Source: an uncultured Clostridia bacterium
GTDB taxonomy: Bacteria > Bacillota > Clostridia > TANB77 > CAG-465
Direction: 5' to 3'
Assembly: GCA_944386345.1 (NCBI GenBank)
Contig: CALXAR010000009.1
Coordinates: 1-38,540, forward strand
Length of the DNA: 38,540 bases
The notes under the pieces are model-generated. The model saw nothing but the letters and a program-made list of their open reading frames with translations. It was not told the origin of the DNA and searched no databases. This document shows positions 1 through 38,413 of the stretch, in pieces (the first letter of the stretch is position 1; every line of letters starts with the position of its first letter). A program made the position numbers and the translations under genes.

Positions 1-3000
1 AGCTCAAATTTACAATTTGGTATTGGTGTTGAATCCATTGCATCTAGTTTCTCAAATGTTACTGTTGAGTCTTTTCTAAGGTTTTCAACTACTATTTCTT
101 CTCCTGTCCACTCATAAGTTTCTTCATCATATGATGCTACAAACTCATGTGGCTCTGTATTTAGTTCATATATATCAGGTGCTTTTACTTCTGTGTATGT
201 GTATTTCTTTCCATTTTCAAATAATGATACTGGTATATATCCTACACCTTGTCCATCTGTCACTGATTTTAATAACAATTCTCCATCTTCATCTCTAATC
301 TCAAATACACAATCTTCTATTGCCTCTCCTGTAAATACGTCTATTTTTGTTAATAACGCTTCTATAACATCCTCTTCTACTAATGCTTGATATATCATTG
401 TATCTTTATTTGAAATATCAAGTGTTATCTTTGTAACTTCATCTGATAATTCATATCCATTTGGAGCTTCAATTTCCTTTATATAATATTCTCCTAATGG
501 CAAATTATCAAGTTCAATTATTCCAGTATCATCAGTTACTATTATAGCTTCTTCAAAATTTCCTGTTTCATTATTTTTTATTTTTAATGGATTTGTACAT
601 TCTTCATCAACATATATTCCATATTTAGCTCCTGAAACAAATTTTACATTATTATTTTTGAAATACTCTTTTATTTCATCTTTTGTCATGCCTTTTATAT
701 TATTAATAATATCTTGTGTTTTCTCGTCTAACTCACTAGTATCAATTTTATCTCCGTTTAATATTATATTATCAAGTGTTGTTGACGCAATTTTTAGTAA
801 AGTAATTGAAGCACTATCATATGTATTTATTAATTCTGGACCTTCTACAACAATAACTTCCTGCTCAGAGCTTTGATTATATTCTAATACAAAATCTATT
901 GTATCTTGGCTTACTGTATAAGGATATGATACATATAATTCCTTTACATAGTATGTTCCTTCAGGTAAATCTATATTACTTATAGCTTCATTATTGTCAT
1001 CTGTCCATATTAAATCTACTAGTTTATTATTAGGAATTATTATTTCTCCTTTACTATTACTTATAACTTGTTTTGTATATACTCCAAATAAAGCTTTTGG
1101 TTGATTTTCATTTGAATCTGAGTATATATTTTCTTCATATTTTTTGTTAAATGTTAATTTTAGTTTTTGTCTTACATTTTCTAATTCTTTATCATATGTT
1201 TCAACAGCCACCATTTCATTGTTGTTTTCTAATATAACATTTTCTATATTTTTATCTACTAAATATCCTTCTGGAGCTGAAGTTTCAACAATTCTATATT
1301 CTCCTAAATATAATGGTTTTGTTTGTGCATATCCTTCATCATCTGTTAATATTGTATCCACTACATCTCCTGCATATACATATGTATATCTTCCATCTGG
1401 TGATAAGATATCATTTTCTGCTATTATTTGATATTCTACATCTGGTAATCCTTGTAAAGTATAAACTGGTGTAAATTTTTCTTCTTTCTCTGTAGCCCCT
1501 GAATCACTTACTTTATATTCTACGGTACTAGATGTTGCTCCTGTTAATACTTCTCCTTTTTTCTGTATATTCAATTGTGCTTTTAACACTGTATTATATA
1601 TTTCTACATCAACTGTTAAATTTAAATCTGGGTCATATATTGTTCCATCTTCTATTCCAGTTGCAATTGTATCTATTGTAACTTTTACTCCACCTTTTGT
1701 TACATCACCATAATCAGCCTCATTTTCTGGCAATCTATATGTCTCATCTAAATAATATCCTTCTGGAGCTTCAACTTCATATACTATATAATCTCCAGCA
1801 TATAATTTTTGTGGTGTATATAAATATCCCTCATCATTTGTTTCAAATACATTTATATAGTTTCCTGATGGACTTACCATTTGAGATACAAATTCTCCTG
1901 CAGTGCAATCCCATATCATATATTTTCCACCAGCTATGTGAACTTCTTCTTTGCTCTCTGAATCTTTTTTAATTATTTTTAAATATGCAGAAATTGGTTC
2001 ATCTGCAACTATTCTAAATTCTTCTTTATGATCCTTATCTATTGTTATCTGCTCAGGATTCATAAAGAAATATGTATGTGTTCCATTATTACTTGCCCTT
2101 ACTTCGTCAATTTCATACACTCCATATGGTATTGTATATTCATCATCTGGATTTAACTCTTTATATTCTTCATCTATAAATTCTGCATAACCATTTTCAT
2201 CTATTGTTGCGTAATATGTATTTCTTTCCTCTTTATCTGTTCCTATTGCAGATATCAATCTTAATCTCAATACTGCTCCAGTTGAAGGCTCCTTATCTGT
2301 ATCATTTTCAGTTTCATCATTATTTTTGTCGTTATTATATTTTACTACTCTTCCTCTACCTGTCATTCCTTCTTCTGATTGTGTTACACTTTCAAGTCCT
2401 AAATCTTCTGCATACATATCATCATTGTCATTTTCTACTTCAACATCAATTATTTCTTCATTTATATTATATCCTTCAGAAGCATATAATTCTTTCCAAT
2501 AATAACTTCCTACTGGTAGTCCATCTATTGTTTTATTTAATTGCATACTATATACTTCTTTAACTACAGGTGTATATCCATTTACATCTGTTGTTACTTC
2601 TGTAATCTTTTCTCCATTTCTAAATATTAAAGTATCTCCTTCATATATATCTTCTGCTGCATAAAGACCATATCTTGCTCCTTCTAATTTAGAATCTCCT
2701 TTTGGACTATCACCCCAATATAAATCATATTTTTTTAATTGTGTCTGTCCTCTTTTATAGTCGTTTTCTGCCTCAAATTGTATTGTATTTGTATATCCAC
2801 TCTTTACTTTATATGAAATATCTTGTGTTGAATCAGGAATGTATAAATTTCCTGGAGCATAAATTTCACTTATTGTATAATCGCCAACTCGTAAATTATC
2901 TATTTCTGCCACGCCATTATAATTAGTAGTAATTTCAAAGCTTACATTATCTGGTCCCCCAGTTACTAAAAAAGTAGCGCCTTGAACATTATTTCCATGC

Positions 3001-3857
3001 TCATCTACTTTTAGTAATTTTAAGCTTCCTACTGCAGTTAAATTAAATGTAGCTTCTGTTCCTTGTCCATATATTGTTTCCATTCTTGGTACAATTATAG
3101 TTTGTGAATCTGGTTTTCTCCACACCTCTGCAGCTCCGTATATTTGCGCACTTGTTGTACAATTTGATCTTAAAGTAAAACTAATATCTCCAGTAACAGA
3201 ATTTGCAGGTACAATAATTCTTACCCCATCATAATATGATTCAATTTTAGTTCCTGCTGGAGGGTTTACTAGCTCTGTTGTCCCATTTGAAACAATTATT
3301 TTATTTGAAACATATGCATCAAGCGATTTATTATATTTTAAGCTATAATCTCCATTTTCAACAAATATTGTTGCATTTGGAGCAACTATTCCATTATTAC
3401 AATTATTGGCTTCGTTAATTAAATTATCTAAGTCTGCCATATTTCCATGAAGAGCTTCTACTGTATTACCAGGTGTTAATTTCCAAACTGCAGCTTGCGC
3501 AAGTTCTCTAGATATCCTTCTATTTTCAGCTGCATACATAACATAGCTTAAAGCCCCAGGATTTCCAAAACCATTAGTTGTTTCTCCATTAAAGCTATAT
3601 TCACCATTATCTAACATTTTTCCAGCTTCAATACAATAAGCCCATCTACCATCCAGTAAATATTCATACGTTGTATAGTCAATTGGCACTTCACTATCAA
3701 CGCCATACCCTACAAAAAGAGAGGTATCTTTTACATAAGAAGTATCTAAATCTAGGTTTGTTATTTGTGCATACGCTGCAAAAACCTTATAATTAATACT
3801 TCCAATTAATACAAACATAACTACCAAAACTGGAATTATACTTCTTCTTTTTCTCAT
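1..3857 (-). CDS. Giant thioester-domain / Cna-B repeat surface adhesin (3' end beyond window)
   Basis: The reading frame stays open on the minus strand for 1285 codons and leaves the window at base 1, so the C-terminus and any sortase signal are not visible. The ATG at 3857 is chosen because GGAGG lies six bases upstream; an in-frame ATG at 3863 directly touches the GGAGG. Residues 1-27 form a signal peptide (basic MRKRR, hydrophobic core, cleavage near VFA). Residues about 60-130 resemble a thioester domain: Cys75 in WAYCIEAG and Gln121 in ELAQAAVWKL fit the Cys-Gln pair that makes an internal thioester for covalent host binding. After it come eight Cna-B/SpaA-like domains, each ending in an E-box such as YYIKEIEAPNGY or YIVYEVEAPEGY (near residues 330, 455, 577, 697, 857, 975, 1127, 1223) and opening with a Lys-containing strand; a ninth begins at the edge. 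Such domains normally form Lys-Asn isopeptide bonds. Likely a wall-anchored stalk or pilus-like adhesin. The family is clear; the ligand is unknown. Confidence 0.9.
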   Translation of the reverse strand, partial: MRKRRSIIPVLVVMFVLIGSINYKVFAAYAQITNLDLDTSYVKDTSLFVGYGVDSEVPIDYTTYEYLLDGRWAYCIEAGKMLDNGEYSFNGETTNGFGNPGALSYVMYAAENRRISRELAQAAVWKLTPGNTVEALHGNMADLDNLINEANNCNNGIVAPNATIFVENGDYSLKYNKSLDAYVSNKIIVSNGTTELVNPPAGTKIESYYDGVRIIVPANSVTGDISFTLRSNCTTSAQIYGAAEVWRKPDSQTIIVPRMETIYGQGTEATFNLTAVGSLKLLKVDEHGNNVQGATFLVTGGPDNVSFEITTNYNGVAEIDNLRVGDYTISEIYAPGNLYIPDSTQDISYKVKSGYTNTIQFEAENDYKRGQTQLKKYDLYWGDSPKGDSKLEGARYGLYAAEDIYEGDTLIFRNGEKITEVTTDVNGYTPVVKEVYSMQLNKTIDGLPVGSYYWKELYASEGYNINEEIIDVEVENDNDDMYAEDLGLESVTQSEEGMTGRGRVVKYNNDKNNDETENDTDKEPSTGAVLRLRLISAIGTDKEERNTYYATIDENGYAEFIDEEYKELNPDDEYTIPYGVYEIDEVRASNNGTHTYFFMNPEQITIDKDHKEEFRIVADEPISAYLKIIKKDSESKEEVHIAGGKYMIWDCTAGEFVSQMVSPSGNYINVFETNDEGYLYTPQKLYAGDYIVYEVEAPEGYYLDETYRLPENEADYGDVTKGGVKVTIDTIATGIEDGTIYDPDLNLTVDVEIYNTVLKAQLNIQKKGEVLTGATSSTVEYKVSDSGATEKEEKFTPVYTLQGLPDVEYQIIAENDILSPDGRYTYVYAGDVVDTILTDDEGYAQTKPLYLGEYRIVETSAPEGYLVDKNIENVILENNNEMVAVETYDKELENVRQKLKLTFNKKYEENIYSDSNENQPKALFGVYTKQVISNSKGEIIIPNNKLVDLIWTDDNNEAISNIDLPEGTYYVKELYVSYPYTVSQDTIDFVLEYNQSSEQEVIVVEGPELINTYDSASITLLKIASTTLDNIILNGDKIDTSELDEKTQDIINNIKGMTKDEIKEYFKNNNVKFVSGAKYGIYVDEECTNPLKIKNNETGNFEEAIIVTDDTGIIELDNLPLGEYYIKEIEAPNGYELSDEVTKITLDISNKDTMIYQALVEEDVIEALLTKIDVFTGEAIEDCVFEIRDEDGELLLKSVTDGQGVGYIPVSLFENGKKYTYTEVKAPDIYELNTEPHEFVASYDEETYEWTGEEIVVENLRKDSTVTFEKLDAMDSTPIPNCKFE

Positions 3858-4097
3858 TTCCATCCTCCATTTCCAATATATTTTTTCTAACATTATACAT
3901 TTATTATATAATTTACTATATTGTTATTAAATATTTTATGTCTATTTATATATAAAAAAGTAGTATTATTTCATTTGCTTTGCAGTTGTGTTGCGCTAGC
4001 AAAAAAAGAAAAAGACATTATTGTTACAATAAAAAAAGGCACTAATTTGTATCTACTTTCATTTTACCACTTCAACTATCTAGGGTTTTTCTATAAA
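3858..4097. other. AT-rich intergenic region upstream of the adhesin
   Basis: This is the upstream region of the adhesin gene. On the minus strand a TATAAT-like hexamer lies about 30 bases before the start codon, but no convincing -35 box sits at the right distance, so no promoter is called. Plus-strand open frames here are short, lack a ribosome binding site and resemble nothing known. I see no gene. Confidence 0.4.
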
Positions 4098-4104
4098 CAA
4101 CAAA

Positions 4105-4129
4105 AAGCAGACACAATTTGTGTCTGCTT
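4105..4129 (-). terminator. Rho-independent terminator of cassette A
   Basis: A perfect 12-base inverted repeat (AAGCAGACACAA / TTGTGTCTGCTT) begins 5 bases after the stop codon of the minus-strand ORF and is followed on that strand by a short T run. The same hairpin ends cassette B. Confidence 0.85.
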
Positions 4130-4134
4130 CTAAG

Positions 4135-4470
4135 CTAACATACAAAGATATGGTCATCCTCGCATAGTATAGCAAAATCTAGATGCTCACAAGGCATTCC
4201 CATCCTCTCGGTACGAAGAAGAAGAAACTTTTTGCCTTTAGCATCATGCGTGAGTACGACGTCTATCACAGCGTACCAATTATGTAATGGCCACGTCTTT
4301 ATCATAGCATCACGTTCTACAAATGTTGCTATGCACTTGTCAACGTGAAGAGAAACGTGCCTTAAAAGACCATGTTCATCATCCTCACTATATATGAGTG
4401 AAAAATCCAAATCAGTCTTTGTTACGGCAACATACTCTTTTCCTTGGTCGTCGTGTAATAGTTTACCCAT
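4135..4470 (-). CDS. Unknown 111-aa cassette protein A
   Basis: I do not recognise this family. The ATG has AGGAGG seven bases upstream and lies behind a perfect-consensus promoter. The protein is soluble in appearance, with no signal peptide or membrane segment, and is rich in Asp, His and Cys. Compared with the protein at 5010-5339, the N-terminus (MGKLLHD..GKEYVA.TK.DLDFS) and C-terminus (LLLRTE..G.PCE.LD.AI..DD.IFV) are conserved, while the central part (residues about 26-75) differs widely. Codon use and GC differ from the AT-rich neighbours, which points to acquisition by transfer or to unusual selection. It forms a single-gene unit with its own promoter and terminator and sits between the adhesin gene and the remnant of another surface-protein gene. 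No function can be assigned. Confidence 0.8.
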   Translation of the reverse strand: MGKLLHDDQGKEYVAVTKTDLDFSLIYSEDDEHGLLRHVSLHVDKCIATFVERDAMIKTWPLHNWYAVIDVVLTHDAKGKKFLLLRTERMGMPCEHLDFAILCEDDHIFVC

Positions 4471-4507
4471 ATTCCTCCTTTTTTATTAATTACGGGTAAG
4501 GAGTAAC

Positions 4508-4529
4508 AACTCGTCTATTAAAACAAGTT
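4508..4529 (-). promoter_or_regulatory. Leader hairpin of cassette A
   Basis: In the untranslated leader, AACTTGT can pair with ACGAGTT seven bases at a time (one G-T pair) around an eight-base loop. GGAG and CTCC segments outside it could close a longer stem. The same leader is present in cassette B. It could be an attenuator or a stability element; this is inference from base pairing only. Confidence 0.4.
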
Positions 4530-4551
4530 TTATTAAATCTCCTATGTATAA

Positions 4552-4580
4552 ATTATATCACATTTTTAATTTTATGTCAA
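4552..4580 (-). promoter_or_regulatory. Perfect consensus sigma-A promoter of cassette A
   Basis: On the minus strand TTGACA (4575-4580) and TATAAT (4552-4557) are separated by exactly 17 bases, matching the housekeeping consensus at every position. It lies about 80 bases before the start codon and predicts strong transcription. Confidence 0.9.
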
Positions 4581-4618
4581 CCTTTAGTGGCTATTTTTTA
4601 AAGCATTTTAAAAATTAA

Positions 4619-4729
4619 CTACGCTTTTTTTATTATAACAAATACTATTTCTACTGCACATATTGCTGCTACAGATGCTATAGCTATTACTACTATATCT
4701 TCTGTCTCTGGTGCTTTTTCATTTGTTAC
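4619..4729 (-). pseudogene. C-terminal sortase-type tail remnant of a surface protein
   Basis: The minus strand reads VTNEKAPETEDI, then a hydrophobic stretch of about 20 residues, then a short basic end IIKKA and a stop. This is the layout of a wall-sorting signal: an APETED motif in the LPXTG position, a membrane span and a positive tail. It has no start, and a stop codon lies directly upstream in frame, where IS200-derived sequence abuts it. It is best read as the last piece of an older adhesin gene once located upstream of the adhesin at 1-3857. The tail resembles that of the surface protein entering at the right edge. Confidence 0.65.
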
Positions 4730-4736
4730 TTATATC

Positions 4737-4838
4737 TTAATCATAAAATACTTTTCTTCTATATTTTGGTGCAAATACTATATGATACTTGCATTCTCAC
4801 GTTGTATATACTAAACTTTATGTGTATGAATTTTTCAT
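4737..4838 (-). pseudogene. IS200-type transposase (TnpA) N-terminal remnant
   Basis: Thirty-four minus-strand codons in one frame read MKNSYT-stop-SLVYTT-stop-ECKYHIVFAPKYRRKVFYD-stop. The segment YHIVFAPKYRRKVFY is the typical opening of IS200/IS605 Y1 HUH transposases. Two internal stops stand where His and Trp are expected, and about 110 downstream residues, including the HUH motif and catalytic Tyr, are missing. The gene is dead. A GGAGAG ribosome binding site is still visible upstream. Confidence 0.75.
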
Positions 4839-4845
4839 ACGAATC

Positions 4846-4904
4846 ACTCTCCTTCTAGTTAATGTTTGGTTGTCGGACCAATTACATTATACTACAAGGA
4901 GAGT
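4846..4904 (-). promoter_or_regulatory. Inverted repeat that can hide the ribosome binding site of the IS200 remnant
   Basis: ACTCTCCTT (4896-4904 read on the minus strand) pairs perfectly with AAGGAGAGT (4846-4854), which contains the ribosome binding site before the ATG at 4838. A TATAAT hexamer lies between the arms, so only transcripts entering from upstream would carry both. This matches the known IS200 arrangement in which read-through RNA cannot be translated. Confidence 0.5.
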
Positions 4905-4976
4905 TCTTTTTTTCTGCTACTTTGTGCAAAACTATAAGTTCTTTTGAACCACAGGCATGCTGAACTTGTCAACAAA

Positions 4977-5001
4977 AAGCAGACACAATTTGTGTCTGCT
5001 T
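4977..5001 (-). terminator. Rho-independent terminator of cassette B
   Basis: The same 12-base inverted repeat as at 4105-4129, followed by a T run on the minus strand, 8 bases downstream of the ORF stop. Confidence 0.85.
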
Positions 5002-5009
5002 CTGAAATG

Positions 5010-5339
5010 CTAACCGACGAAGATATAATCGTCGTATGGAATAGCAACATCCAAACGTTCACAAGGTATTCCAGCCAGCTCGGTACGAAGAAGAAGATAC
5101 TTCTCTCCATGAATATCGTATGCAACTAAGACATCTCTTACAATGTACCAAACATTTGACGGAAGCGTCTGTACTATCAGATGAGCTATACATATTTTTA
5201 TCAGCACATCTATAGGAAAAGTACAAGGATGCGTTGAAAGACCACATTCATCATCATAGAATCTGAATGAGAAATCCAAGTCCTTCTTCGTTATTGCCAC
5301 GTACTCTTTACCTTTGTTGTCGTGTAATAGTTTACCCAT
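5010..5339 (-). CDS. Unknown 109-aa cassette protein B, paralogue of protein A
   Basis: This is a divergent relative of the protein at 4135-4470; about half of the residues match, mostly in the first 25 and last 35. It starts with MGKLLHDNKGKEYVA and ends with YDDYIFVG. The ATG follows AGGAGG, and the upstream 127 bases are the same as in cassette A except for one missing base. No membrane segment, signal peptide or known catalytic motif is visible. The sampled GC of about 45 percent is far above that of the flanking genes. Codons such as GTGGCAATAACG stand where copy A has GTTGCCGTAACA, so the ORFs have diverged at synonymous sites although the flanks have not. Function unknown. Confidence 0.8.
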   Translation of the reverse strand: MGKLLHDNKGKEYVAITKKDLDFSFRFYDDECGLSTHPCTFPIDVLIKICIAHLIVQTLPSNVWYIVRDVLVAYDIHGEKYLLLRTELAGIPCERLDVAIPYDDYIFVG

Positions 5340-5375
5340 ATTCCTCCTTTTTTATTATTACGGGTAAGGAGTAAC

Positions 5376-5397
5376 AACTCGTCTATTAAAACAAGTT
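5376..5397 (-). promoter_or_regulatory. Leader hairpin of cassette B
   Basis: Same seven-base-pair hairpin as at 4508-4529, in an otherwise identical leader. Conservation of the whole leader next to diverged coding sequence is the main reason to suspect a function. Confidence 0.4.
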
Positions 5398-5419
5398 TTA
5401 TTAAATCTCCTATGTATAA

Positions 5420-5448
5420 ATTATATCACATTTTTAATTTTATGTCAA
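5420..5448 (-). promoter_or_regulatory. Perfect consensus sigma-A promoter of cassette B
   Basis: TTGACA (5443-5448) and TATAAT (5420-5425) on the minus strand with 17 bases between them, identical to the promoter of cassette A. Confidence 0.9.
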
Positions 5449-5466
5449 CCTTTAGTGGCTATTTTT

Positions 5467-6797
5467 GTGATTAATTTATGATAATGTCACTATATAAATA
5501 GTAATTTTTATTTTTCAGAAATGTCACTATAAATTATGATAAAATTAAAGAATGGAGAAATATATAATGACAAAAAAAGACTTAAAAAGATATGGAGTAA
5601 TTAATGATTTAGTAAAAGGAAATTACACAGTAGAACAAGCTTCTAAATTACTAAACATCTCTTCTAGACAAGTTTTAAGATTAAAAAAGAATTTTACTAA
5701 AAAAGGAGTTGATGGAATAATACATAAAAGTCGTGGTAAAAAGCCTAATAATTCTAAACCTGATGAACTTGTTAAAAAAATACTTGAATTAAAGAAAGAT
5801 TTTAAATATGAAAAAGCTAATTTTACTCATTTTAAGGAACTTCTAAAAGAATATGAAAATACTGATATATCTTATTCTTGTCTATATTCTATTTTAACTA
5901 AAAATGGTATTAAAAGTCCCAAAAAACATAAAAGAGTAAAACTACATCATAGACGTAAAAGAAAGGATTATTTTGGCGAATTTGTACAAACAGATGGTAC
6001 TCCTTTTGATTGGTTTGGTACTGGTAAGAAATATACAATTCATGGATATATTGATGACGCTACTGGTATTCCTCTTGCTCTTTATATGTGCGAATCTGAA
6101 TGTCTTTTAGGTTACTTAGAGATTACTAGACAAATGCTTGAAAACTATGGCATGCCCGAAACAATTTATTCAGATAGGTTTAGCGTCTTTTTTCCTCCTA
6201 GCTCTGCTAAACTAACTATTGAAGATGAACTACAGGGCTTAGAACGTCCTAAAACACAATTTTTAGTATTTTAGAATCCCTTAATATTAATTTGATTGCT
6301 GCCGGTTCTTCTCAAGCTAAAGAAGGTATACGCCAAAAAATTCGGTGTAGCTCCTCAGAAAAAAGAAAGTAAATTTGTTAAAGTTCCTAAAGATATTAAT
6401 CTTGATACTCTACTTACTACTAAATTTACGAGATGTATAGATAATTCTGGTTGCTTTTCTTTTTACAACAAAAAATTTCAAGTAATTGCAGATAATATTC
6501 CACCAAAATCTAAATTAACAGTCTTGATGAGCAAAAAAATTGGTATTAAAGCTATGTATAAAGATACACTTTACAATGTAATAACTTGTGAAGACTTACC
6601 AACGCATAATACTTCAAAAGATTTTAACAAAATATTCAAAGAAAAAGAAGTAAATAATATCACTTTTGCCACTTATATCTTATCTTTAGATGCCAAGAAA
6701 AATTCACCTTTGCTAACATCTTCTTAGTTAGCAAAAGGTGACATTTCTGAAAGTTAATTTACTACTTTTTATGTGACATTTCTGAAAATTATTGACA
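5467..6797 (+). mobile_element. Broken ISNCY/IS1202-like insertion sequence
   Basis: The element surrounds the transposase remnant at 5567-6727. Each end carries two copies of a CAGAAATGTCAC-like motif in inverted orientation: ATAATGTCAC at 5481-5490 and CAGAAATGTCAC at 5516-5527 on the left, GTGACATTTCTG at 6738-6749 and 6773-6784 on the right. The outer bases (GTGATTAATTT left, AATTATTGACAC right) are similar when one is inverted. The left end lies exactly where homology between the two upstream cassettes stops. Boundaries are approximate, and I could not identify a target duplication. Confidence 0.6.
5567..6727 (+). pseudogene. ISNCY/IS1202-like DDE transposase, frameshifted and internally deleted
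   Basis: The ATG at 5567 has GGAG at proper distance. The first part has an N-terminal helix-turn-helix (residues about 10-40, YTVEQASKLLNISSRQVLRL) and an rve-type catalytic core with QTDGTPFDWFG (first Asp) and ETIYSDRF (second Asp). The frame breaks near 6260 at a T-rich stretch and reaches a stop at 6272-6274. The sense continues one frame over as LESLNINLIAAGSSQAKEGI, and after an apparent deletion of roughly 100 codons returns as YAKKFGVAPQKKESKFV through the normal C-terminal domain to 6727. The deletion removes the region expected to hold the third catalytic acid (GRIERLW in relatives). No active transposase can be made. Confidence 0.75.
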
Positions 6798-6799
6798 CT

Positions 6800-7267
6800 T
6801 TAATATAACTTTACATCATCTATTCCTTTAAACTCTTCTACAACAATATGCTTAATTTCTTTTTTTAATTTCTCACTTAAAAGATTATAACACATATTTT
6901 CTTCACCACCTATACTACTACAGTTATCTTCAATTAGTATGTCTGGTAGCTCCTCTTTAATTAAAGTTGCATAATCTTGATTTTTTTGCCTGTATCCAAC
7001 CATTGAGCCAGTAAATCCGAGTTCATCTAAATGCTGAGCCATCTTCATAGCCCCTCTTCCTTTAAGCGATGTAAGATAAATAATTTCATATCCTTCTTCT
7101 TGCCATTTTTTTAAAGTATTAATTGCATTATCTATTGGAATATAATTTGTCATATTAATTCTAGAAAAAAAATTATTTTTATGTTTTGGCTTTAAAATAG
7201 TCCCCTCAGTAAAAATCATTATTTTTTTGTTATTATTTTTTATTTTGTCTATTATTATAAATCCCAT
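6800..7267 (-). CDS. HAD-like protein lacking the usual nucleophile
   Basis: A 155-aa protein, 9 bases downstream of uvrB and probably translated from the same mRNA; AAGGTGAT precedes the ATG. The order of elements resembles a small HAD phosphatase: motif I region IMIFTEGTI (residues 16-24), a helical cap, motif II YLTS (about 64-67), and motif IV ILIEDNCSSIGGE (about 110-122). In motif I the canonical DxDGT is FTEGT, so the nucleophile Asp and the acid Asp are replaced by Phe and Glu. From memory, related bacterial and archaeal proteins share FTEGT, so this is probably a family trait rather than decay. Activity is therefore uncertain; a binding or regulatory role is possible. Confidence 0.6.
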   Translation of the reverse strand: MGFIIIDKIKNNNKKIMIFTEGTILKPKHKNNFFSRINMTNYIPIDNAINTLKKWQEEGYEIIYLTSLKGRGAMKMAQHLDELGFTGSMVGYRQKNQDYATLIKEELPDILIEDNCSSIGGEENMCYNLLSEKLKKEIKHIVVEEFKGIDDVKLY

Positions 7268-7276
7268 AGAATCACC

Positions 7277-9232
7277 TTATTTCATATTTTTTAATTCTTC
7301 AATAAAATCTCTAATTGTTGCTGCTTTTTCAAATTCATATTTTCTTGCGTAATTCATCATTTCTTCTGTTAATCTTTCAATTGATTCTTCTATTGATTCA
7401 CCTTTTTTAACATTTATTTCTTCTTGCTCATCTTCCTCTTTAAATGTAGCTTTTACACTATCTCTTACTTCTTTTACTATTGTATGTGGAACAATACCAT
7501 GTAATTCGTTATATTTCATTTGGATCTCTCTTCTTCTGTTTGTCTCGTGTATTGCTTTCTCCATTGACTCAGTAAGTTCATCTGCATACATTATAACACT
7601 TCCATTAGAGTTTCTAGCAGCTCTACCTATTGTCTGAATTAGTGATCTCTCACTACGTAAGAAGCCTTCCTTATCAGCATCAAGAATTGTAACAAGAGAC
7701 ACTTCTGGGATATCTAAACCTTCCCTTAAAAGATTTATTCCAACTAAAACATCAAATTTCCCTAGTCTTAAATCTCTTATTATCTCAAGTCTATCAAGTG
7801 CCTCAATATCTGAGTGCATATATCGTACTCTTATATCTTTTTCAGATAAATATGCAGTAAGTTCTTCTGCCATCTTTTTAGTAAGAGTTGTAACTAAAAC
7901 TCTTTCTCCTCTTGATACTACATCATTAATATTTTGAGTCAAGTCTTCTATTTGTCCTTCTGTAGGTTTTACAATAATTTTAGGATCTAAAAGCCCGGTT
8001 GGTCTAATTATCTGTTCTGCTATAACTTCTGAATGTGCTTTTTCATAATCTGCAGGTGTTGCACTAACAAATATAACTTGTTTTACTTTTTTCTCCCACT
8101 CCTCAAATCTAAGCGGTCTATTATCAAAAGCTGAAGGTAATCTAAAACCATTTTCAACTAAAGACTCTTTTCTTGCTCTATCTCCATTATACATTCCTCT
8201 AATTTGCGGAATTGTAACATGTGATTCGTCAACAACAACTAAAAAATCGTCTCCCATATAATCAAATAGAGTGTATGGTGTAGACCCCTTTCCTCTTCCA
8301 GATAATACAGCTGAATAATTTTCTATTCCTTGACAAAAACCTGTTTCTTTTAGCATTTCAATATCAAAATTAGTTCTTTGTTCAATTCTGTATGCTTCTA
8401 CTACTTTATCTCTATCTTTAAAGTATTGTATTCTCTCTTTAAGCTCCTCTTTTATTTTATCAATTGCAGAATCAATCTTTTCTTTTTGTATTACATAGTG
8501 AGATTTTGGATATATAAACTCATGCTTAGAAGTAGCTTTCACCTTTCCAGTTATAGCTTCAATAAGACATACCCTATCAATCTCGTCTCCAAAGAACTCA
8601 AGTCTTATTGCTTCTTCTCCATTTCCAGCCGGAAAAATATCTAAAACATCTCCTTTTACTCTAAACTCACCACGTTTAAAGTCCATCTCACTTCTTGTAT
8701 ACTGCATCTCAATTAATCTTTCAAGCACTTCATCTCTATCTATTTTCATACCAGGTCTTACAGATAATACCATAGAGCTATAGTCTTCTGGAGAACCCAA
8801 AGAATAAATAGATGATACAGATGCAACAATTATAACATCCTTTCTTTCAAAAAGAGCAGCTGTTGCACTATGTCTTAACTTGTCTATCTCATCATTTATT
8901 TGACTTTCTTTTTCAATATATGTATCAGTAGATGCAATATATGCTTCTGGTTGGTAATAATCATAATAAGAAATAAAGTATTCAACTGCATTTTCTGGAA
9001 AGAACTCTTTAAGCTCACTATATAGCTGTCCTGCAAGAGTCTTGTTATGTGCCATAACTATAGTAGGCTTATTTACTTTAGCAATAACGTTTGCAATTGT
9101 AAATGTTTTACCAGAGCCAGTAACACCTAAAAGAGTCTCTCCTTTATATCCTTTTTTTATTCCATCCACTAAAGTATCTATAGCTTCTGGTTGATCGCCT
9201 GTTGGTTTATATTTAGAATGTAATTTAAACAT
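7277..9232 (-). CDS. uvrB: Excinuclease ABC subunit B
   Basis: UvrB is the damage-verifying helicase-like subunit of nucleotide excision repair; it receives damaged DNA from UvrA and recruits UvrC. The 651-aa protein has the normal length. Visible are Walker A GVTGSGKT (residues about 38-45), the beta-hairpin [10 protein letters not shown] that grips DNA, the DESH box in [11 protein letters not shown], helicase motif VI in QTIGRAARN, and a C-terminal UVR motif that contacts UvrC. The ATG at 9232 ([18 protein letters not shown]) is chosen because AGGAGG lies just upstream and the family starts here; the 27 additional upstream codons are not conserved. uvrA is not in the window. A HAD-like gene follows 9 bases downstream. 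Confidence 0.97.
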
Positions 9233-37050: not shown

Positions 37051-38413
37051 GTGAATTAAAAATTCACTCGCACTTCGTGCCTTAAATTTTAAGTCTATCT
37101 TTTTTATTGAAGGTAGGCTTATTTTTATATTAATTATATAATTTTATTGAGGTATTTTATGAATTTTTTAGATAATATTTTAGATGAACAATCTCATATC
37201 ATTGGTCATAGAAATCATATTATTCAAGATATTTTTAAAGATCATTGGGATGCATTTTTAGCTTCTACTCCCAATGTTCGTTTTGTTGTTAAAGAAGAAA
37301 TTTCTAAATTTCTTCTTTGTGGCTCAATATCCTCTGGTTACTCTGTTTATGATTGTAATGTTTGTGGTAACTATGCCTATGTTCCTTTTACTTGCAAATC
37401 TCGCTTTTGCCCTTCTTGTGGTGTGAATTCCTGTATCAACCGTTCTAACCTCATGCCTTCTAGATGTATCGATTGTCCTCATAGACATATTACTTTTACT
37501 ATTCCTTCTTCTCTTTGGCCTTTTTTTCAAAAAGATAGGTCTTTACTAAATGATCTATTTGATGCTGCTTCCTTTACTATACTTTCTTGGTTTAAGGGAA
37601 TTTCTAAAATGGATTCTTTTATTCCTGGTATTGTATGCACTTTTCATACTTTTGGTCGTGATTTAAAATGGAATCCTCATATTCACATGATTGTTACTGA
37701 AGGAGCTATGGGACGCATTACACATTGGAAATCTTTCGATTTTTTTCCTTTTGATATGCTTCGTAAAAGATTTTTGACAAAACTACTCTATAATTTATCT
37801 AAAAAAATTCTCTCTGCTGACTTTAAAAAAATTAAATCTAACCTTTACAAAGAGAACGGTAAAGGTTTTTATGTTCATGCTCCTAAAAAAACAGTTTCTA
37901 ATGTTTCCTCCATTTTAAAATATATTACTCGCTATACTGGTAGACCTGCTATGGCTGAGTCTCGTATTTTATCTTATGATGGCGATTTCGTTTCTTTTTA
38001 TTAAGACAGACATGAAGATAACCAAAGAATTGAAGAAAAAATACATGTATTTGATTTTTTCAAAAAACTTATTATTCATATTCCAGAAAAAGGTTTTCAT
38101 ATGATTAGATATTATAGCCTTTATGCTATGAAAAAATCTAAAACTAATATTCTTAAAAGGGTAAAAGAAAAACTTACCCAGCCTCTTAAATGGTTGGATA
38201 AGCTTTTCTTCCATTTCAAGTGCAACCCTTTAAAATGCACTTGCGGAAACTATTTAAAATTTCAATACGTTGTACCCGCTTCAAAAGTACAACATCTTAG
38301 CAATCTCCTCCGATTTCTAAGATACTTTTAGTTTAACATATTTTATTTTTCATGTCCTTTTTATTTTTCTGATGAACATCTTGTTCTATACTAGGAAAAG
38401 AAATTTCCTAGTA
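37051..38413 (+). mobile_element. IS91-like rolling-circle insertion sequence (approximate ends)
   Basis: The element surrounds the broken transposase gene. Its left side starts with inverted repeat GTGAATT/AATTCAC (37051-37067) and GCACTTCGTGC (37070-37080); its right side holds the 12-bp hairpin 38387-38415. TACAAGAAAA occurs just outside the left end (37041-37050) and again at the right hairpin (38414-38423). IS91 elements need a tetranucleotide such as CAAG next to one end and make no target duplication, so the CAAG at the right may be that site and the full ten-base match chance. Ends are not certain. Confidence 0.45.
37159..38331 (+). pseudogene. IS91-family HUH transposase with an in-frame stop
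   Basis: The ATG at 37159 lies behind a weak AGG ribosome binding site. A zinc-ribbon follows (YDCNVCGNYAYVPFTCKSRFCPSCG, residues about 60-85), then HIHMIVTEG with the HUH metal site (about 174-182), then the catalytic-Tyr region SSILKYITRYTGRPAM (about 252-267). At 38002-38004 a TAA replaces an expected aromatic codon (DFVSFY-stop-DRHEDNQRIEE); the same frame then continues normally through the C-terminal zinc part (CNPLKCTCG) to 38331. One substitution thus splits a 390-codon gene. Catalytic motifs lie before the stop, so the truncated product may keep part of its chemistry, but the gene is probably inactive. Confidence 0.8.

Follow-up and report, generated by a model that had tools for sequence, protein, structure and literature searches.

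Paired gene cassettes with near-identical control regions and diverged orphan genes in an uncultured Clostridia genome

How can two neighboring transcription units keep almost the same control regions when the genes between them have diverged widely? The question is raised by two cassettes, A and B, of an uncultured, gut-type Clostridia bacterium (GCA_944386345.1), which share one orientation at a spacing of about 870 bp and are the only two copies in the genome. The window, i.e., the whole stretch of 38,540 nucleotides that was analyzed, is one contig (CALXAR010000009.1) of a 1.29-Mb draft assembly (66 contigs, 96% complete). We put at about one half the probability that the cassettes are moron-like, horizontally acquired, self-contained units that were homogenized, or exchanged alleles, via the flanks they have in common, at a site that is rearranged and rich in IS elements.

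Anatomy of the two cassettes

The presence of two like cassettes was confirmed by sequence analysis. Both are on the minus strand, and each is a monocistronic unit with a consensus extended -10 promoter, a leader, a ribosome binding site (RBS), one open reading frame (ORF), and a terminator. Cassettes A (4098..4598) and B (4970..5466) were delimited by direct repeats (4480-4598/5348-5466 and 4098-4131/4970-5003) and by alignment with one another; unit A extends from a -35 element at 4580-4575 to a terminator end near 4098, and unit B from 5448-5443 to near 4970. Promoters A (4552..4580) and B (5420..5448) both have the perfect TTGACA-17-TATAAT arrangement described in an earlier, sequence-only reading of this DNA, with an extended -10 TG besides, and are the only 12/12 consensus matches in the region. 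The leaders are about 76 nt long (A, 4471..4547; B, 5340..5415, which is leader A minus one T), and the RBS is AAGGAGG in both units. ORF A (4135..4470; ATG at 4470, stop at 4135) was called as an orphan protein of 111 amino acids and ORF B (5010..5339; ATG at 5339, stop at 5010) as one of 109. The predicted intrinsic terminator A (4103..4131) comprises a 13-bp stem and a T tract, and terminator B (4975..5003) has the same sequence within a 34-nt block identical in both copies; a common stem had been noticed before, but at 12 bp, and the 13 bp given here were listed for copy A.

In an alignment read from the promoter side, the units match exactly over 109 nt and then over 39 nt, with a single additional T in A between these runs, and again over 34 nt at the terminator. 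Exactly 22 coding bases fall within the 39-nt run; the common leader, RBS, and coding start reported earlier were found again. Between A and B there are 0 substitutions 5' of the ATG, and the previously reported one-base difference is the inserted T in A, an indel rather than a substitution.

The leader is predicted to fold more stably than almost any shuffled sequence (z about -2.8; -2.76 for leader A, for which alternative states are predicted, and -2.84 for leader B with part of the ORF). In the predicted fold, the 5' GGAG pairs with CUCC, and UUACCCGU pairs with the start-codon region; in a weaker alternative, CUCCUU pairs with the RBS (-15.2 vs -21.3 kcal/mol). Both predicted states would slow initiation. 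Two near-identical leaders permit no covariation test; therefore, a translation switch is offered here as a suggestion only. An Rfam scan of positions 3800-7300 returned nothing near gathering score. The elements would work together as a very strong sigma-A promoter driving a single small gene behind a short leader, with an intrinsic terminator after it, and the leader hairpin may gate translation.

Divergence of the flanks and the coding regions

The two ORF proteins are 56% identical (58/104 aligned residues), and 21 of the 58 identical residues are encoded by different codons, in keeping with the earlier description of ORFs that match at about half of their residues and differ at many synonymous codons. 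Indels between the ORFs are in frame in the protein alignment, and dN was 0.31 and dS 0.95 (dN/dS approximately 0.33, NG86), which together make it most likely that ORFs A and B are real genes evolving under purifying selection. They would be old relatives within one protein family, either paralogues or alleles. A dS of approximately 0.95 in the ORFs compared with zero substitutions in 127 flanking bases means that a single old duplication without later homogenization or exchange fails; flanks and ORFs cannot, on these sequences, be of one age unless constraint acts on every base of the flanks. At four-fold sites shared by the ORFs, 9 of 22 differ, whereas 0 of 127 upstream sites do (Fisher p 6e-9). 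Recombination at the common flanks, as the sequence-only reading had proposed, is well supported by this contrast. That reading had also held that an upstream block confined to this locus would indicate a plain old tandem duplication. In the collections searched, the block was found only here, but the contrast in divergence nevertheless speaks against such a duplication.

Overall GC content is 40.2% for ORF A and 38.8% for ORF B, lower than the 45% suggested earlier. Their GC3 values (0.36 and 0.35) nevertheless exceed the native maximum of 0.26, which was obtained from 1088 blocks of 110 codons in the 18 other genes of the window. With GC3 above every native block, the cassette genes look imported.

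This pattern could also come from an old tandem pair of paralogues in which intra-genomic gene conversion later homogenized the flanks alone, with no new allele imported, and we hold this explanation to be possible but tentative, at well under even odds. The shared orientation, the spacing of about 870 bp, and the presence of just two genomic copies are favorable to conversion. The identity of A and B declines gradually, not sharply, past codon 7, which would suit the end of a conversion tract and counts against allele exchange, as protein constraint could produce it too. However, conversion requires two separate tracts, upstream and at the terminator, that spared the ORF, and the foreign GC3 of both ORFs still needs import.

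It is unlikely that strong purifying selection has held the promoter, a switching leader RNA, and the terminator identical while the protein drifted or diversified. The fold score of the leader, the pairing of the start codon, and the anti-RBS segment that could pair with the RBS instead are consistent with such selection, but the 17 nt upstream of the -35 element, the promoter spacer, and the leader loops are identical in A and B too, and the sole change is an indel. Because bases upstream of the -35 element and in the spacer, which can normally vary, share this identity, selection on RNA does not explain it; exchange or conversion via the flanks is the simpler reading, and the other explanation put forward earlier, strong selection acting solely on the control RNA, became less likely. 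The contrast between upstream and four-fold sites is too extreme for selection alone, and the ORFs themselves appear to be under purifying rather than diversifying selection. An assembly artefact, in which strain variants were joined in one metagenome-derived contig, is very improbable: the draft is fragmented and the identical stretch is close to a common assembly k-mer length, but A and B are set in different unique flanks, are separated by a 371-bp spacer, and can be told apart by an indel.

Under the preferred reading, horizontally acquired units with exchange or homogenization through the flanks, the events could have run in either of two orders. The unit may have been duplicated recently, and homologous recombination in the flanks may then have put a diverged allele in place of one ORF; alternatively, two related cassettes may have exchanged or converted their flanks. 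We infer transfer and exchange from composition and divergence only, as neither a donor nor a third cassette was found. If right, the locus would be a snapshot of orphan accessory genes moving as ready-to-run units and diversifying via exchange through common control regions.

Searches for relatives and likeness to known systems

Profiles of the A/B proteins found no relative in 36 genomes of the family (own genome excluded) or in samples of 385, 391, and 398 genomes from the order, class, and phylum, respectively; a search of 338 genomes from another Clostridia family, run without a positive control, gave no match whatever. These samples overlap. Similarly, narrower searches detected no A/B protein relative, whether by tblastn of phages and plasmids, in 85,000 genome records, or by peptide patterns in IMG/VR; the pattern-based searches reach close relatives only. 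At the DNA level, the leader and terminator gave no match in the phages, plasmids, genome records, and IMG/VR sequences searched; many weak matches within the genus were just common promoter hexamers.

Protein family libraries gave nothing credible (best E value 0.06 in Pfam, 0.098 in PHROGs, and 0.22 in NCBIfam; none in PADLOC), and a PDB sequence search gave no match to the cassette proteins. Structure models built on the two sequences alone were rich in beta structure: all-beta at low confidence for ORF A (pLDDT 61) and mostly beta for ORF B (pLDDT 77, pTM 0.70, one of five models). Foldseek comparison of these models with PDB and viral models produced no E value below 0.4. The best VIA-align score, to eIF5A (Z 4.9), was within the range of unrelated models, and no fold is claimed. 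The profile and fold comparison envisaged earlier thus yielded neither a homologue in the genome samples searched nor a firm fold match.

With no third member found anywhere searched and a dN/dS that points to purifying selection, the earlier view of a diversifying family could not be demonstrated, and an undescribed system is unsupported beyond two orphan genes. Recombination is supported, but with just two members in reach a diversifying system is unproved. It is quite unlikely that the cassettes belong to an undescribed family in which small accessory genes exchange their coding cores between constant flanks and the leader, pairing with either the start codon or the RBS, acts as a translation switch.

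Phage morons are self-contained accessory genes (cf. PMC3952083). The cassettes resemble them in having a single ORF, their own predicted promoter (12/12) and intrinsic terminator, and a base composition unlike the surroundings (GC3 0.35 vs a native maximum of 0.26). They differ in that no recognizable prophage surrounds them in the available part of the contig and that two near-identical control regions surround diverged ORFs. Our best guess is that the product is a small accessory protein of phage or conjugative-element origin; the chance that any one specific role (anti-defence, for example) is right is about one in five. dif modules and integron gene cassettes also combine constant flanks with variable gene content, but here no recombination site is repeated at both cassette ends, and no direct or inverted repeat joins the two ends of a cassette. 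In the SAS/ESAS of cluster K mycobacteriophages, conserved sequence that includes the RBS is found at the translation starts of different genes (PMC3203893). The cassettes likewise have conserved sequence around the translation start, RBS included; however, SAS/ESAS are 13-bp repeats at many genes (PMC3203893), whereas the cassettes share one 148-nt block, promoter and leader included, at two genes of one family.

Mobile DNA around the cassettes and the IS1202-type element

The cassettes occupy a mobile-DNA junction. Their 371-bp spacer is made of debris, which includes an IS200/IS605-type remnant (4751..4958, minus strand) truncated on both sides. The remnant is a 92-95% match to copies in the genus, some of which carry a TnpA gene, and is without the left end present in other copies. 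Just upstream of cassette A, the spacer also holds what is left of a CnaB-type surface protein gene, its C-terminal tail (4619..4742, minus strand), recognized by translation and by a homologous full gene in sequence L061. A second CnaB-type surface-protein gene (3-3893) follows cassette A and runs off the contig, which ends 4 kb left of the cassettes. The tail and this gene flank cassette A, which suggests a decayed surface-protein array. The idea that a cassette and a surface gene together form a tandemly repeated unit was rejected, as the sequences past terminators A and B do not match.

The neighbors of the cassettes are thus a surface protein, IS remnants, and chromosomal genes on the uvrB side, and no prophage or conjugative-element gene adjoins them in the available part of the contig. 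In eight relatives, homology on the uvrB/HAD side ends at window positions 6799-6801; by this comparison, the cassette side is a rearranged segment that the eight relatives lack. DNA upstream of the surface gene gave just short, weak matches in relatives, and no exact empty site was established for cassette A. An IS91-family transposase gene (37147-38004) is located close to the contig's right-hand end.

A broken insertion sequence of the IS1202/ISNCY type occupies 5466..6797 on the plus strand. It is 1332 bp long with 18/25 terminal inverted repeats, which were compared with the values in PMC10132070. NF033594 matches it twice (2.7e-68 and 6.2e-9), and the profile assigns its transposase to the IS1202/ISNCY type; the gene is broken, and its score of 230.8 bits falls short of the cut-off of 250. 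No target site duplication was seen for the window copy, and no copy with both ends was found. The homology of A and B ends at 5466 because the element landed there, and this is not necessarily the end of the cassette; an IS insertion that had gone unrecognized in the sequence-only reading thus determines where the shared block stops on its 5' side.

The insertion is 17 nt upstream of the -35 element of promoter B, and this spacing recurs. Four genomes of the genus carry the left end of the element, at nine places in all, and at eight of these places a perfect TTGACA is located 17 nt from the IS end, with a -10 element 15-18 nt further; the background frequency of TTGACA is about 2-3 per 10,000 sites. 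The distance was tabulated as 18 nt from GTGATT, but the preceding T is present in 9/9 copies and belongs to the inverted repeat, which makes the gap 17 nt. Two of the nine sites are one locus in sister species, and two others precede weakly similar DNA, so that about six or seven of the cases are independent. In most copies only the left end survives.

These data look like insertion targeted to promoters. We found no report in the literature of promoter targeting in the IS1202 family, and the paper on the family gives dif-like sites as the only targets, with no mention of promoters (PMC10132070). For TnGBS elements, the insertion point lies 15-17 bp upstream of sigma-A promoters (PMC3942029), a distance like that seen here, but their transposase is of the Mutator type rather than the IS1202/ISNCY type. 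The apparent promoter targeting suggests that some IS1202-type elements choose their targets by sigma-A promoters, and this may be a more useful discovery than the cassettes themselves. The same solo IS left end was observed in the orthologous interval between a VanW-like gene and a gene for a 173-amino-acid protein in two sister species (L092, 4653-6098, and L097), where it has probably been kept since before the species split.
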